A DNA stretch of 64,000 nt. Origin: Akkermansia muciniphila (GTDB lineage: Bacteria; Verrucomicrobiota; Verrucomicrobiia; Verrucomicrobiales; Akkermansiaceae). The translations under genes and the position numbers were made by a program. The notes beneath the pieces were generated by a model, which had not been told where the DNA came from, ran no database searches, and worked only from the letters and a program-made list of their open reading frames with translations. The first letter of the stretch is position 1, and the number at the start of each line of letters is the position of its first letter. This document shows, in pieces, positions 46,496 to 63,505 of the stretch. The stretch covers positions 1 to 64,000 of the forward strand of contig CAMDAD010000001.1 of assembly GCA_945888515.1 (NCBI GenBank), given 5' to 3'.

Positions 46496-46626
46496 GGCGG
46501 AAGAAGGTAATTTGGGCGGATTGACTCAAAGCCGCCCCACAGCTTTTCGCCCTACGGGCACGTCGCGAATAGCTCCTGTCCAAACCACCTATAAGCCTTC
46601 GGTGGTTTTGGACCGAATCCGCCCTA
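46496..46626. repeat. Interspersed repeat family A, copy 1
   Basis: Starts GGCGGAAGAAGGTAATTTGG and contains nested short hairpins (GCCCTACGGGC; ACCACCTATAAGCCTTCGGTGGT). It shares ends and layout with 63392-63511. It lies between the antitoxin gene and rfbG. Its CGCCCTACC end forms a 9-bp hairpin with the start of the next repeat (46620-46640). Confidence 0.65.
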
Positions 46627-46631
46627 CCGTT

Positions 46632-46682
46632 GGTAGGGCGTGGTCGGCCTCGCCGCGCCCAGTTGTCCGCCGAATGGCGGTG
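46632..46682. repeat. Interspersed repeat family B, copy 1
   Basis: About 50 bp, starting GGTAGGGCGTGGTCGGCCTC and ending in the hairpin CCGCCGAATGGCGG. Near-identical copies are at 59921-59969 and 60693-60742. It ends 3 bases from the rfbG stop codon and could act as its terminator or an mRNA stabiliser. Confidence 0.8.
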
Positions 46683-46685
46683 CTT

Positions 46686-47852
46686 TTATTCTTCTCCCGT
46701 CGCCCATGCAAGTCCCTTGGCGGCCGCGGCTTGATGATAGGTTTGAATCTGTTGGGTCGTGAGTTCATGAATATTCCAGCCGTTGGCTTCGTCTTGATAC
46801 CATTCAGCCGTAGCAGCGACCGTTTGCTCGAAGTTCCAAACCGGCTGCCACTGGAGCAGGTGGAACGCCTTGTCGATGGCGAGATTCAGCTTGGATGCCT
46901 CGTGCACGGCGTTCGGGTCGGAGGCGTCTGTCCATTCGCCGCCGGTGTGTTTCAGCAGCTCTTGGACGAGTTCGGCGACGGTGCGGTTGCTGGTGAGCGC
47001 CGGACCGAAGTTGAATGCGGATGAGAGGGAAGAAGAACAAGGGACGATTGACGATTGACGATTGTTGATTGTTGATTGTTGGCTCGACGGAGAGGCTAGG
47101 GAGGCGGCGAGGTGGAGGTAGCCGCTGAGGGGTTCGAGGACATGCTGCCAGGGACGGGTGGCGATTTTATTGCGGACGGGGATGGCTTGGCCTTCGCGGA
47201 GGGCGCGGATGCAATCGGGAACGATTCGATCGAGTGCCCAATCACCGCCACCGATGACATTTCCCGCCCGTGCGGAGGCCAGTTTGATTCCCGCATCTTG
47301 ATTGCTGACTCCTGCTCCCTGAGCAAAGAAAGAGCGGCGATAGGAGTCGATGACGAGCTCCGCAGCACCTTTGCTGGCACTGTAGGGATCGTGGCCGCCC
47401 ATGGCGTCTTCCTCGCGATAGGCATGGAGCCATTCCCGGTTATCGTAACACTTGTCCGTGGTGACGCAAACGACCGAGCAGGCTTGGTTCCGAAGGCGCA
47501 CCGCTTCAAGAACGTGCGCGGTGCCCATCACATTGGTGGCGAACGTTTCGATGGGAATCTCATAGGATAGCCGGACCAGCGGTTGCGCGGCCAAGTGCAA
47601 AACCAGGTCCGGGTTCGCTTGATCCAGGGCTTTGGAAAGGGCGGAGCGATCCGCAAGGTCCGCGCGGGTGTCTCCGGCGATGCGATCCGCAAGTCCCAAC
47701 TGATGGAAGAGGATTTCGTGGGGTTGGGGGTCGAGCGCGTAGCCGTGGACTTCGGCACCCAGCATCAGCAACCACTCGGTAAGCCACGAGCCTTTGAAGC
47801 CGGTGTGGCCGGTGAGGAAGATGCGTTTCTTTTGATAGAAGCTGCTGAACAT
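46686..47852 (-). CDS. rfbG: CDP-glucose 4,6-dehydratase
   Basis: 388 residues, extended SDR. RIFLTGHTGFKGSWLTEWLL is the diagnostic N-terminus. Also present are LVRLSYEIPIETFATNVMGT, VTTDKCYDN and the catalytic YSASKGAAELV, followed by ARAGNVIGGGDWA. It converts CDP-glucose to CDP-4-keto-6-deoxyglucose, the substrate of RfbH. Two inserts are encoded by 7-base DNA repeats (residues ~176-187 and ~257-271). It is 123 bases downstream of rfbF. Confidence 0.95.
   Translation of the reverse strand: MFSSFYQKKRIFLTGHTGFKGSWLTEWLLMLGAEVHGYALDPQPHEILFHQLGLADRIAGDTRADLADRSALSKALDQANPDLVLHLAAQPLVRLSYEIPIETFATNVMGTAHVLEAVRLRNQACSVVCVTTDKCYDNREWLHAYREEDAMGGHDPYSASKGAAELVIDSYRRSFFAQGAGVSNQDAGIKLASARAGNVIGGGDWALDRIVPDCIRALREGQAIPVRNKIATRPWQHVLEPLSGYLHLAASLASPSSQQSTINNRQSSIVPCSSSLSSAFNFGPALTSNRTVAELVQELLKHTGGEWTDASDPNAVHEASKLNLAIDKAFHLLQWQPVWNFEQTVAATAEWYQDEANGWNIHELTTQQIQTYHQAAAAKGLAWATGEE
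47043..47084. repeat. Seven-base tandem repeat inside rfbG
   Basis: Six 7-mers: GACGATT three times, GTTGATT twice, GTTGGCT. 42 bases, frame-neutral. On the coding strand it gives the Gln/Ser/Asn-rich segment QQSTINNRQSSIV. Confidence 0.85.
47293..47327. repeat. Second seven-base repeat tract inside rfbG
   Basis: GCATCTT, GATTGCT, GACTCCT, GCTCCCT, GAGCAAA: the same GATT/CT 7-mer style as in rfbH, more degenerate. It encodes GAGVSNQDAG just before the conserved RAGNVIGGGDW. Confidence 0.6.
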
Positions 47853-58250: not shown

Positions 58251-59762
58251 TTACCGCAAGATGACGGCCTGTGTATGGGAGCTTTGCAAGGAAGATAGGA
58301 GTTTGATCATTCCAGCGAGCGCAATCAAAGGAGGGAAGTCATTTCTGAATGCACCGAAAATGAGCCAGTACCACAAGGGATGAATGAGAAATGGTATGCA
58401 GAGGAAAAGGACCGTGCCCCACTCTCTCTCTCCGCGATAGTAATTGATGCACCGGTGGGCAAAAACTGCAAAGACAATAAGTGCCGCTGTCGCGGCTATG
58501 AGGCCGATGACTCCGGTGAAGCGGATGGTCTCGGCGTGGAAGCCGTGGTATGAGCCAGTGGCAAGGAACATCTCCTCTGTGTTCATGCCGCCAGTCATCC
58601 TGTAATCCCCGAGCATGAGCGCTTCCCGCGCGGCCAGCTCGTTGCTGGAATACTGAAAGCCATCCCCAAGCAGTTTGTTGGCGATGTAACGGTCTGTGGT
58701 AAGTACTAGTTTCCACATCTCGAAGCGAAGTTGGCTGCTTTTTTCAGCGTCTTGGGCGATTCGCGACTCCACTTGGGCGCCGGGCAAAATCGTAAGGATC
58801 CGCTGGACGCTATAGGGTAGCTTATAGGTGGGAATCGCGATTAAAACCCCGGCTATCAGTAAAGTAATAGCGATAGAAACTACGAAAACATCGAGAAACT
58901 TGCGGCGCAGGATGGAGCCCAGCGAGCAGTGGGTGAAGAGCAACACAGCATTGCCACGGAAACCACCAAGGAGGGTGAGCACGACCGCAGCCAATGCGAT
59001 CACAATTCGGTAAGGTTTGCTTAGGTCGAGAGCCGCGAGCGGGCGCCAGAAGCTGCAGGCGACTAAGCCGAGGATCGACCCCAGCGTGGCGAATTCCGTG
59101 ATCCGACTTTCAAGCACGTTTCCGGTATAGTCTTCTGACTGAGTCGCTAAGAAGCTGACGTTCGAGTAGAACCGGATCATGTAGCTGGCGAAGGCTGGTG
59201 AGAGTCCCGAGATTGCCGAAATACAAGCATCGCCGAGGGCGAAAATGATGTAAGCTATCACGGCCCAACGCCAGGTCTTGATGTCGGACTCGGCGGTGCT
59301 GATGAGGAAATAGGCAATAATGGCTACCCCGAAAACAAAGTAAGGTTTTCCCCCTGCGACGTCGCCACCAAGAATTAACAGGCCGGTGGGGTTGCGCAGA
59401 AACGCTTGAAGGACGGTTAGAGCAACGAGGAAAATGGCAGTTTCCATGCCGGACCATCGAAGATGGATCTTTTGCACCCGGGTGAGCCAGCGCAGTAGAA
59501 AGAAGCAGCCAACAACCGCGGTCATCAGGTGCCATGGAGCGGGTGATCCCGGGATGAAGTTCAGCCCGCCCTTCATCCCGAGTGTCGCCGGAATGAGGAT
59601 CCAAATATTGCGGCCTAGGAAAAAGCAAATCCCAATGAACAGACTGCCCGCGACCCAGATGAGCGCTTCGAGCTGCGCGGTCGCGGCGAGGACACCGAGG
59701 TATAGCGCGAAGAAGAGCGCCATGACGACAATGATGAGCGCCTTGATTTTTGAGGAATCCAT
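58251..59762 (-). CDS. O-antigen polymerase/ligase-like membrane protein
   Basis: 503 residues with 10-12 transmembrane helices and a large loop around residues 330-420 (GDGFQYSSNELAAREALML, then ATGSYHGFHAETIRFTGVIGL). The HGFHxE-type motif in this loop is the usual catalytic region of Wzy/WaaL-family proteins. It is the second such protein in the window (the other is at 27.3-29.2 kb) and is the better candidate for the repeat-unit polymerase because it lies within the main cluster. Confidence 0.8.
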   Translation of the reverse strand: MDSSKIKALIIVVMALFFALYLGVLAATAQLEALIWVAGSLFIGICFFLGRNIWILIPATLGMKGGLNFIPGSPAPWHLMTAVVGCFFLLRWLTRVQKIHLRWSGMETAIFLVALTVLQAFLRNPTGLLILGGDVAGGKPYFVFGVAIIAYFLISTAESDIKTWRWAVIAYIIFALGDACISAISGLSPAFASYMIRFYSNVSFLATQSEDYTGNVLESRITEFATLGSILGLVACSFWRPLAALDLSKPYRIVIALAAVVLTLLGGFRGNAVLLFTHCSLGSILRRKFLDVFVVSIAITLLIAGVLIAIPTYKLPYSVQRILTILPGAQVESRIAQDAEKSSQLRFEMWKLVLTTDRYIANKLLGDGFQYSSNELAAREALMLGDYRMTGGMNTEEMFLATGSYHGFHAETIRFTGVIGLIAATAALIVFAVFAHRCINYYRGEREWGTVLFLCIPFLIHPLWYWLIFGAFRNDFPPLIALAGMIKLLSSLQSSHTQAVILR

Positions 59763-59920: not shown

Positions 59921-59969
59921 GGTAGGGCGTGGCTGGCTCGCCGCGCCCACTTTCCCGCCGAATGGCGCT
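59921..59969. repeat. Interspersed repeat family B, copy 2
   Basis: Starts GGTAGGGCGTGGCTGGCTCG and ends with CCGCCGAATGGCG. It lies 36 bases beyond the stop of the adjacent methyltransferase gene, whose other end carries copy 3. Confidence 0.8.
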
Positions 59970-60005
59970 GCTGCTGTGTGCCGGATCTGCCCCGCCCTGG
60001 CCGTA

Positions 60006-60692
60006 TCATGAGTTGCGGGTGATGATATGGGACTTGGGAATGATGCCGAGGAGTCGCTCAGTGTGGATCTGGCATCCGGGGAAGAGTTGCCGGAGGCACT
60101 TGCGGGGGATCAGACGGGTGAGATCGACGAGTTCCTGGAGCTGCGCGGCACTGTGGCCGCCGAGCAGGCCGCGGATGGAAAAGAGCCGGGCCGCGTGCGG
60201 GCGAATGCGGCGGGGAAACCAATGGATGCAGGGGCCGAGGAAGTGGGGTTCGATGGGACAGGCGACTGCAGGAGTTTGGATCCAGAGCCGCTTTCCGACG
60301 CGGCAAGCTTCCCTAGCAAAGGCGAGCTGGTCCTCGACGCTGCCGACGTGTTCGATGACCGAGTTGGAATAAACGATGTCGTAGCTGCCGTCTGCGAAGG
60401 GGAGCGCACAGCCATTGCCGCGGATTTCCCGGACTTGGAGCCCGTTCTCGAGGACTCGTACGGGTTTGCTTTCGCTTTCGCAGTCGATATTGACCAAGTC
60501 TACCGTACAGCCTTGGAAGCGGGCATTCTGCCAGGTGGCATAGTAGCCGCCGACATCGAGAATGCGCTCTCCCGGGTGGGGCTGGATGATGCGCTCGAAG
60601 TCGGCCATGCGCCGGGCCCGCCACTTTTTGAATAGCGTCGAGTAGATCGCGCTGACGAGCAGGTTCGAGCCACCGGCTTGGAGTGGTTTCAT
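60006..60692 (-). CDS. SAM-dependent methyltransferase flanked by repeats
   Basis: 228 residues from ATG 60692. Class I fold: GERILDVGGYYATWQNARF (motif I), DLVNIDCES, then YDIVYSNSVIEHVGSVEDQL (motif IV region) and RVGKRLWIQTPA. Copies of the family B repeat lie directly upstream of the ATG and 36 bases past the stop. No Shine-Dalgarno sequence is evident, since the upstream bases belong to the repeat. The flanking repeats may mark an inserted cassette. Confidence 0.85.
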   Translation of the reverse strand: MKPLQAGGSNLLVSAIYSTLFKKWRARRMADFERIIQPHPGERILDVGGYYATWQNARFQGCTVDLVNIDCESESKPVRVLENGLQVREIRGNGCALPFADGSYDIVYSNSVIEHVGSVEDQLAFAREACRVGKRLWIQTPAVACPIEPHFLGPCIHWFPRRIRPHAARLFSIRGLLGGHSAAQLQELVDLTRLIPRKCLRQLFPGCQIHTERLLGIIPKSHIITRNS

Positions 60693-60742
60693 GGTAGGGC
60701 GTGGTCGCCTCGCCGCACCCACTTGTCCGCCGAATGGCGGTG
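60693..60742. repeat. Interspersed repeat family B, copy 3
   Basis: Starts GGTAGGGCGTGGTCGCCTCG and ends CCGCCGAATGGCGG. It touches the ATG of the methyltransferase gene, so it forms that gene's 5' untranslated region. Confidence 0.8.
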
Positions 60743-60944: not shown

Positions 60945-60963
60945 GCGGTTTTCTTAAAACCGC
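60945..60963. other. Hairpin downstream of the nucleotide-sugar dehydrogenase gene
   Basis: GCGGTTTT and AAAACCGC pair perfectly around a CTT loop, 40 bases beyond the - strand stop at 61004. No U-run follows in that direction. Possible 3'-end stabiliser. Confidence 0.35.
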
Positions 60964-60985
60964 GCTACCACGATGCGGCTTTTTT

Positions 60986-61006
60986 ATCCCCTATCCCTTA
61001 TCCCTA
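60986..61006. repeat. Three 7-mers overlapping a stop codon
   Basis: ATCCCCT, ATCCCTT and ATCCCTA on the + strand. The TAG stop (complement of CTA, 61004-61006) of the nucleotide-sugar dehydrogenase lies in the last unit, so the tract begins exactly at the gene end. Confidence 0.65.
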
Positions 61007-62320
61007 AGCTTTCACGACTTGGCCGGGCTTGATTTTCATACCGCTCATGGCGTTGCGGGTGTCGATGATGAGATCGGCGTTGGCGGCGAGCTCGTCTAAC
61101 TTGAAGGCGGAGTGGTGGGTGGCGATGACGATACAATCCTGCGCGGAGAGGTTTTCGGAAGTCCACTCGAGAGAGGTTTTTCCCGCCCAATTCATGTGCT
61201 CGCGGGTGGGGCCGACGACTGGGACGTGGGGGTCGTGAAACTGGACGCTAGCTCCGAGCGCTTGGAAGCGGTCCATGAGCTCGAAGGTGGGTGATTCACG
61301 CATGTCATCGACATTCGCCTTATAGGCGAGTCCGAGAAGCAGGATGCAGCTGCCCTTTACGGCTTTGCCGCGGGAGTTTAGGGCTTCCATGGTGCGGCGG
61401 ACGACGTATTCCGGCATCGAGCGGTTGATCTCGCCGGCGAGTTCGATAAATCGGGTGTGGACACCGAATTCGCGGGCTTTCCATGTGAGATAGAAGGGAT
61501 CGATGGGGATGCAGTGACCGCCAAGGCCGGGGCCAGGATAGAAGGGGGTGAAGCCGAAGGGCTTGGTGGAGGCGGCGCGGATGACTTCCCAGATGTCGAT
61601 GCCCATTTTGTCGGCGGCGATTTTGAGCTCGTTAACTAAGCCGATGTTGACCGAGCGGTAGATGTTTTCGACGAGTTTCGTCATTTCCGCGACTTGGGTG
61701 GAGGAAACGGGCACGATCTGGTCGAATGCGGCTCCGTAAAGGGCTTCTCCGGCGGCAAGGCAGGCGGGCGTGTGGCCGCCGACGACCTTGGGGATGTTGG
61801 TGGCGGTGAACCTGGGGTTACCAGGGTCCTCGCGCTCGGGTGAATAGACGACGAAAATGTTTTGGCCCACTTTGAAACCGGCGGCTTCGACCCGAGTCAC
61901 CACCTCCTCTTCAGTGGTGCCTGGGTAGGTGGTGCTTTCCAAGCTGAGGATCTGGCCGGCTCGAAGGTGGAGTACGACGGAATCTAGCGTCCCTGTCACA
62001 TAGCTCAGGTCAGGTTCAAAGTGTTCGTCCAGTGGAGTGGGGACGCAGAGGATGATAGCGTCGCAGTCCCTAACACGTGAAAAGTCGCTGGTCGCATCCA
62101 GCTTCCCAGATGAGCGGACTTGTGCGACCTGATCGGAGGGGATGTGTTTGATGTAACTCCGTCCAGCATAAAGGTGGTCAATCTTCGAGGAATCGATGTC
62201 GATACCGATTGCCTGAAAACCAGCACGAGCATAGGCTAGGACAAGAGGTAGTCCAACGTAACCGAGACCGACGACGCCAATTACAGAGGATTTATTGTGG
62301 ATGCGTGTAAGTGGAGACAT
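61004..62320 (-). CDS. UDP-GlcNAc/ManNAc-type nucleotide-sugar dehydrogenase (WbpA-like)
   Basis: 438 residues. The NAD site is [22 protein letters not shown], followed by [17 protein letters not shown] and [15 protein letters not shown]. The catalytic Cys is in [20 protein letters not shown], the pattern of the WbpA/TviB group that oxidises C6 of UDP-HexNAc to the uronic acid. It is the first gene of the long - strand cluster; with wecB it suggests a HexNAc uronic acid in the polymer. Confidence 0.94.
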
Positions 62321-62881
62321 GATGGGTAATAGTAAGAAAAAAACTTTTAGACAGTATTACGTTATACAGAAGGCTATGTGGTTAACCTACACCACATCGT
62401 CGCGTGTAGATTAAGAAAATCAATCGCGGAAAGCCCGTTATGACCTGTGATTCTACTTCGCTTTTAGCTACGAAGGGACGCCTTACTGCTTTGCTAAATC
62501 TACGAATTACTAGGGAGTGAAAAGCCTATAACGTTATCAATTAAAATTTTCTCTACGCTGCCGCTCTTGGTCGATTTTGCGAGTCAAAAGCAAAAAACCT
62601 TTCGTGACGTGGCTTCTGTCGTAAGGTGCGGGTGAGGCACGAGAGAAGAAAAGCAGATTTGCGTGAAAAGTTCAATTTAAAATGAACAAAAATGAAAAAG
62701 ATGTGGAGGCGTCACTGGTTCTTTGACTGGAAAGCTGAGAAACTGGCCTCTGACCTCTGACCTCTGACCTCTGACCTCTGAGCTCTGACTCCTGATTGAT
62801 GATTTTGGATTTTCGAATGGGGAAGGGTGATTTCTGGTAGGGACGATCACGCCGTGGATGTCCTGCAGGCGCAAGTGTGGA
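62321..62881. other. Intergenic region before the polysaccharide cluster
   Basis: About 560 bases, AT-rich from 62330 to 62560, as expected for the promoter region of the long - strand cluster. I cannot identify a JUMPstart/ops element. The right half holds the seven-base repeat tract at 62747-62802. An 80-codon frame through that tract is repeat translation, not a gene. Confidence 0.6.
62747..62802. repeat. Seven-base tandem repeat tract (CCTCTGA)
   Basis: CCTCTGA five times, then GCTCTGA, CTCCTGA and TTGATGA: eight consecutive 7-mers, with GATTTTGGATTTT after it. The most perfect of the seven-base tracts in the window and the only long one clearly outside genes. Confidence 0.9.
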
Positions 62882-63178: not shown

Positions 63179-63505
63179 GAATTGAAGTTATGGGCCGTGA
63201 GGAGAGTTTGCAATAGAGGAAGTGGGAAGGAGGAGGAAGGGGAAGGAGTCCGGGTAGGGATGATCCCTCCGTGGACGTCCGTGGTTCTTAGCGGATGGGG
63301 AATCGCAACGTAAGAGAAAGATTTAGCCTCCTACGTCGCTTCGCTTCCACCTTCGCCAGAGGCTATGGCGGACTCGATGAAGGGCTTGCGCGGCGGAAGA
63401 AGGTATCTTGGGCGGACCGAGCCGAGTTTGATTCGGGTTCGCCTCACGCACCCTCAGGGCTTCGCCCCAAGTCCAAAACGACTACAGGCCTTCGTCGTTT
63501 TTGCC
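63179..63505. other. Intergenic region with family A repeat
   Basis: About 330 bases. The right two fifths are the family A repeat (63392-63511). I see no gene in the rest. Confidence 0.55.

Follow-up and report, generated by a model that had tools for sequence, protein, structure and literature searches.

GTAG REPs are recognised by the combination of a GTAG foot and a stem-loop (PMC3733652), and are known in Verrucomicrobia, including Opitutus terrae (Di Nocera et al. 2013, PMC3733652). Most of their families are genome-wide and dispersed (exceptions to the high-copy, dispersed pattern are listed in the same paper), head-tail dimers are rare, and the REPs lie mostly downstream of genes; in Thauera, exopolysaccharide genes are immediately flanked by GTAG-1 arrays (PMC3733652). 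In REPtrons, REPs with a GTAG motif border the gene of a REP-associated tyrosine transposase (RAYT, or TnpAREP), an HUH enzyme related to IS200/IS605 (Nucleic Acids Res. 2021, PMC8266576). In Marinomonas the REPs cluster close to tnpAREP, a pattern read as a recent arrival followed by local multiplication, and the E. coli TnpAREP recognises the REP as a single strand but does not recognise the complementary one (PMC8266576). REPs also occur as inverted pairs, in REPINs or BIMEs (Bertels and Rainey 2011, PMC3116915), and integron attC arrays place direct hairpin repeats around single genes.

The window (the whole stretch of 64,000 nucleotides under analysis) carries three copies of a two-hairpin element of ~49 bp, all in one orientation on the + strand and antisense to the genes that they flank, which lie on the - strand. 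The features needed below are the following (CM, covariance model score; fold z, folding compared with shuffled sequences; UGDH, the dehydrogenase of the last line).

46514..46628, - strand: inverted GTAG partner whose loop is greatly expanded (arms at 46514-46522 and 46616-46624, followed by CTACC)
46632..46682, + strand: REP copy immediately beyond the 3' end of the rfbG-like gene (CM 67.8 bits; fold z -4.4)
46686..47852, - strand: rfbG-like NDP-sugar dehydratase (Pfam GDP_Man_Dehyd/Epimerase)
58251..59762, - strand: protein of 503 aa, encoded downstream of the methyltransferase and without a Pfam match
59921..59969, + strand: REP copy 3' of the methyltransferase stop (CM 66.7 bits; fold z -1.9)
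60006..60692, - strand: SAM-dependent methyltransferase of 228 aa between two direct REP copies (Pfam Methyltransf_11/23, homologues)
60693..60742, + strand: two-hairpin, GTAG-tagged REP copy, antisense, abutting the predicted methyltransferase ATG (CM 69.1 bits; fold z -1.8)
60945..60968, - strand: second type of GTAG REP (GTAGCGCGGTTTTAAGAAAACCGC), present once, in the interval separating the methyltransferase gene from that of the UDP-glucose dehydrogenase
61004..62320, - strand: UDP-glucose/GDP-mannose dehydrogenase, upstream of the REP-methyltransferase pair (Pfam UDPG_MGDP_dh)

The first-pass annotation had placed three copies at these positions, the two around the methyltransferase in the same orientation, and the covariance model recovered exactly these when run on the genome (66.7-69.1 bits, E about 1e-12). 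The junctions that it had described also hold: the 60693 copy begins directly beside the predicted start codon (complement of CAT, 60690-60692), and only a few bp separate the end of the 46632 copy from the dehydratase stop codon. The start codon itself is a plausible prediction, though the first ~10 residues are left uncovered in most homologue alignments. The 503-aa product may be a ligase-like membrane protein, to judge from its position and appearance, and it gives short alignments (68-79% nucleotide identity) with the gene at the same place in the metagenome-assembled genome (MAG) M30B22. Elsewhere in the window, a long ORF (148-1287) contains three direct copies of a ~300-bp stretch with a 420-bp spacing.

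Each element consists of GGTAG, a stem of 8-9 bp, a spacer of 6-7 nt and a CCGCC-GNAT-GGCGG hairpin; this second hairpin (CCGCCGNATGGCGG) is conserved, while the sequence of stem 1 differs among genomes and subfamilies. Over stem 1 and hairpin 2 together, 95% of the cells were paired, and double-change cells numbered 40, where shuffles gave 14.0 +/- 2.6 and slid controls 2-12. Stem 1 thus covaries strongly, with compensatory changes; hairpin 2 was invariant among the chosen rows (selected in part with a pattern containing it), which makes it uninformative on its own pairing. An unpaired GTAG lies directly 5' of the stem-loop, the stem beginning right after it, and GGTAGGG was invariant in 23 variants that had partly been selected with a pattern containing GTAGGG. 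By these sequence features the element is a GTAG-tagged REP. It resembles the published GTAG REP families in its GTAG foot, covarying stem, intergenic site and RAYT linkage, and differs from them by the second conserved hairpin in each unit.

An inverted CTACC partner was found within 25 bp of the GTAG end for 10 of 39 copies in M30B22 (G169), for 8 of 9 in genome G153 and for one of the three in the window. This one is the 46514..46628 partner, which stands tail to tail with the 46632 copy, and a 162-bp stretch beside one element of M30B22 is related to the partner region (88.9% identity). Units that flank RAYT genes are longer, with inverted GTAG hairpins ~100-150 bp apart. Given these partners and longer units, each repeat is one half of an asymmetric, GTAG-tagged REP/REPIN-like unit of ~150-170 bp. 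Several copies thus share with REPINs and BIMEs an inverted pairing, from which they differ in the asymmetry of the pair (hairpin 2 occurs in one half only) and in that the 59921 and 60693 copies are singletons.

The best preserved of the three copies is 46632, whose stem 1 is identical to that of copies in M30B22. The 59921 copy has lost the last pair of hairpin 2 (CCGCCGAATGGCGC), the 60693 copy has one broken pair in stem 1, and both fold only slightly better than shuffled sequences; these two copies are decaying. Two weak GTAG-type hairpins (window 62836-62871 and 63253-63298; 9.8 and 11.8 bits with the model) lie close to a stretch that shares 75.6% identity with a region of small genes adjoining a REP in genome G155.

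The first-pass annotation had proposed a genome-wide search for further copies, and had taken a scarcity of them as a reason to abandon its idea. DNA searches of the assembly that contains the window, which has 54 contigs, a total of 3.36 Mb and a completeness of 97.5%, returned only the three copies at E < 1e-10, and further matches to hairpin 2, all with a mismatch, were at background level only. The element is therefore no genome-wide repeat in this organism, a possibility that the DNA and covariance model searches both rule out, and the scarcity that the annotation had named as counting against its idea was in fact observed. The high copy number and dispersal typical of GTAG REPs are thus lacking in the focal genome, which lowers the typicality of the element and not its membership among GTAG REPs. 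No Rfam family of structured RNA matched the window. An origin from phages or plasmids found no support: searches of phage and plasmid collections by blastn gave no match, although three pattern matches were obtained in viral contigs.

A DNA search of 56 more genomes, drawn from the genus, the family and the order, gave no match better than E 0.004, and each of nine congeners had 0 or 1 hairpin-2 match, as in the background; sharing of the element with close congeners was ruled out by these searches. When 84,980 species genomes were scanned with a two-part pattern, real copies were found only in two Akkermansiaceae MAGs, M30B22 (JAGYIT010000006.1) and Loclat_bin-13236, the other pattern matches being read as chance because the full element was missing. 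The same contig coordinates recur in the whole-genome set (as G057/G169, which is M30B22, and G058/G205), and on this basis the focal genome belongs to that family but to another genus.

In M30B22, all 43 full copies lie on the first 49 kb of one contig (C4) and the last 3 kb of another (C13), all on the - strand; these contig ends share 2,000 bp at 99.4% and are therefore one locus or its duplication. Most or all copies of G153, G215, G187, G202 and G155 likewise lie on one contig in one orientation, and copies are dispersed in G201 and G182. Part of the M30B22 array (C4:42247-48775) is made of near-identical ~101-bp head-to-tail REP units that look like a recent tandem amplification. The array as a whole (C4:1-49000, L085-L087) stands beside polysaccharide genes and is full of toxin-antitoxin-type genes (PIN, DUF5615, MNT nucleotidyltransferase with HEPN, YhgA-like nuclease), plus a GIY-YIG gene.

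The lead of the first-pass annotation, to look for a RAYT, proved right for relatives and not for the focal genome. In G153 and G202, the ~147-aa ORFs situated between copies match the NCBIfam family NF047646 "REP-associated tyrosine transposase", three RAYT neighbours scoring 83-87 bits for a cutoff of 80. By eye, the putative catalytic residues are those of an HxH motif (PDHLHG/A) and a conserved tyrosine (KAKYIRMNP). Searched with a profile of this clade, about twenty genomes within the family gave scores above 180 bits. RAYT genes flanked by the same REPs were found in G153, G202, G187, G215, G163, G154, G217 and G169, the last one broken, being split into two frames. Where the element profile detects the flanks, these are direct copies at one or both sides, in one orientation and antisense, and in several loci the GTAG end is ~8-25 bp from the RAYT ATG; RAYTs whose flanks escape the profile have GTAG hairpins of their own, with other stems and a similar layout. 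In the focal genome (G000) the clade model matched nothing at 1e-6, and the copies present there are therefore orphan relics. This genome encodes other Y1 transposases, three of ~158-171 aa and four of ~370-380 aa (contigs C6, C10 and C29; C7, C12, C16 and C27), and none of these contigs bears a copy of the element.

The contigs on which the copies cluster were characterised by a Pfam scan of 61 larger proteins, picked from ORF maps and not at random, in which glycosyltransferases, methyltransferases, pyruvyl transferases, nucleotide-sugar dehydratases and MBOAT acyltransferases led; on this annotation, these contigs are loci for surface polysaccharides. When the 61 proteins served as queries, 10 of 18 further RAYT-bearing stretches had at least two polysaccharide-type neighbours and 8 (clade RAYTs of L318-L320 and L322-L326) had none or one, compared with 0 of 21 control stretches, many of which were shorter. 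A second REP type (GTAGCGCGGT..ACCGC), with one copy in the focal genome (60945-60968) and one inside the array of M30B22 (C4:8672), behaves likewise: in G220, 7 of 8 copies are within 5.3 kb around its RAYT, forming a cluster beside that gene in a polysaccharide locus.

In eight cluster contigs from eight genomes (G169, G153, G187, G215, G202, G155, contig C23 of G219, and the window), chosen for their clusters of copies and not for orientation, 72 of 72 copies were opposite to the main coding strand. As tandem duplicates are not independent, 8 of 8 contigs is a fairer count than 72. Considering ORFs of at least 200 aa, 62 copies had co-directional antisense neighbours and none had co-directional sense ones; at a cutoff of 150 aa the counts were 37 and 0, the rest being beside mixed-strand ORFs, many of them probably spurious. 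Two more single-copy contigs in the orientation table were both antisense. Single copies outside clusters were mixed (the copy on G215 C32 is sense), and the antisense rule fails in the dispersed genomes, where the co-directional cases of G201 and G182 were 7 sense and 3 antisense. Possible causes of the orientation are single-strand insertion on the lagging-strand template, selection on the transcript and local duplication; uniformity within one locus could partly come from tandem duplication. The strand preference of TnpAREP would fit a strand-specific process.

Compared with the GTAG REP families described by Di Nocera et al., the element differs in its confinement to polysaccharide loci in several genomes and in its uniformly antisense orientation there. 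The likeness to REPtrons extends to the REP-bordered RAYT, the GTAG motif and the type of enzyme, and the difference is that here residence in polysaccharide loci is common to many genomes of one family and involves more than one type of REP.

We give a probability of about 0.8 to the reading that the repeats are orphan, partly decayed REP elements of a RAYT clade. The RAYT, as a single-strand HUH enzyme, would act on the GTAG strand of the hairpin and multiply it locally, and the copies would have reached the focal genome with horizontally acquired polysaccharide genes. That they were acquired along with such genes is probable; the horizontal origin is suggested by their absence from congeners together with the ~90% nucleotide identity of one 374-bp block in a MAG of another genus. 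In the focal genome they would now be inert as transposons, with at most a local effect, for example of the 60693 copy as a structured 5' leader of the methyltransferase, and the two copies that flank this gene would be a by-product of local REP insertion and not the ends of a working gene cassette.

The idea of a cassette, raised by the first-pass annotation for the methyltransferase, was examined through the history of this gene. No homologue of the methyltransferase (METHYLTRANSFERASE) was detected in the nine congeners at 1e-10. Its best match is a gene of M30B22, 88% identical over 105 aa and shortened by an internal deletion, the other homologues being 34-51% identical. In 14 other family genomes, no copy lies beside the homologues (one weak match is ~1 kb away, in G197). 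The REP-ATG junction is common to the focal genome and M30B22 (JAGYIT010000006.1; 374 bp at 89.8%) and in both is preceded by the UGDH tail, giving the order UGDH-REP-methyltransferase; the UGDH body is only 78.6% identical and in M30B22 is cut off from that tail by a GIY-YIG gene. The junction, common to both loci, is therefore older than their split. The downstream (59921) copy has no aligned counterpart at the M30B22 site, where an empty site is undefinable to the base because the flanks are too diverged. In the same region of M30B22 (L085:12669-14700), a GIY-YIG gene lies between the UDP-glucose dehydrogenase gene and a second, partial dehydrogenase 3' end. The presence of the gene is thus not bounded by repeats in the one informative relative. 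A recent REP-bounded capture of the methyltransferase, as first envisaged, is not supported, and these alignments argue against it.

In a more general form, genes would be moved between direct REP copies by the RAYT or by homologous recombination, in an integron-like exchange. REP-rayt-REP and REP-methyltransferase-REP do share a direct antisense layout, the copies are uniformly oriented, and the M30B22 array, rich in toxin-antitoxin-type genes, recalls integron attC arrays, as do direct hairpin repeats around single genes. Small genes (for PIN toxins and for 151-aa and 122-aa proteins) are also found between or beside copies, in 600-800 bp blocks common to two or three genomes with otherwise different surroundings, and these keep the idea alive at a low probability; but the blocks stop ~60-400 bp from the REPs and not at them. 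Against it also stand the shared stretch of the methyltransferase, which includes the UGDH tail outside the REP and not the downstream copy, the fact that most polysaccharide genes are without individual REP flanks, and the literature searched, in which no RAYT-driven mobilisation of cassettes was found reported. The enzyme associated here is a RAYT, unlike in integrons, and no GTTRRRY core was seen in the element on reading by eye. An exchange of this kind is considered as improbable. Still less credit is given to its strongest version, in which a polysaccharide-resident RAYT/REP system would recombine genes between direct antisense single-strand hairpins and so exchange polysaccharide and toxin-antitoxin genes, analogous to integrons and enzymatically unrelated to them. 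A regulatory element, with antisense hairpins acting in the polysaccharide mRNA (as 5' leader, or in attenuation, mRNA stabilisation or polarity control) and their orientation kept by selection, is a little less doubtful than such exchanges and is still unlikely: clustered copies occupy the strand opposite to that of the operon, with a start codon often only a few bp downstream, and Thauera GTAG-1 arrays have been suggested to direct or modulate exopolysaccharide gene expression (Di Nocera et al., PMC3733652), but folding of the RNA at the start of the methyltransferase gave z -0.86, no improvement on shuffled sequences, decay affects two of the copies, and the distance to the start codon may be as short as 1 bp or as long as several hundred. 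Chance similarity among hairpins rich in GC has in its favour the searches with separate 12-mers and 14-mers allowing mismatches, which were uninformative, their results being near chance expectation in the window; it is refuted by the genome-wide and comparative searches (full-length copies at E 1e-12 to 1e-25, 43 relatives at one locus of the MAG G169, strong covariation) and has practically no probability left.

The orphan REP reading thus assigns the repeats to a known kind, REP/RAYT, with partial precedents in Thauera and Marinomonas. As far as checked, residence in polysaccharide loci and uniform antisense orientation across several genomes are new, and the literature search, mostly of open-access papers, found no paper that joins REP sequences, polysaccharide and RAYT. 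REPs are usually viewed mainly as genome-wide repeats maintained by a stationary transposase. If true, a RAYT lineage resident in polysaccharide loci, with REPs that mostly stay there on the strand antisense to the genes, would connect REP biology with surface genes of these bacteria that are among those changing fastest. Such a system would allow three questions to be tested together: what sets the direction in which REPs insert, what distance they cover from the transposase, and whether they contribute to the diversification of the loci.
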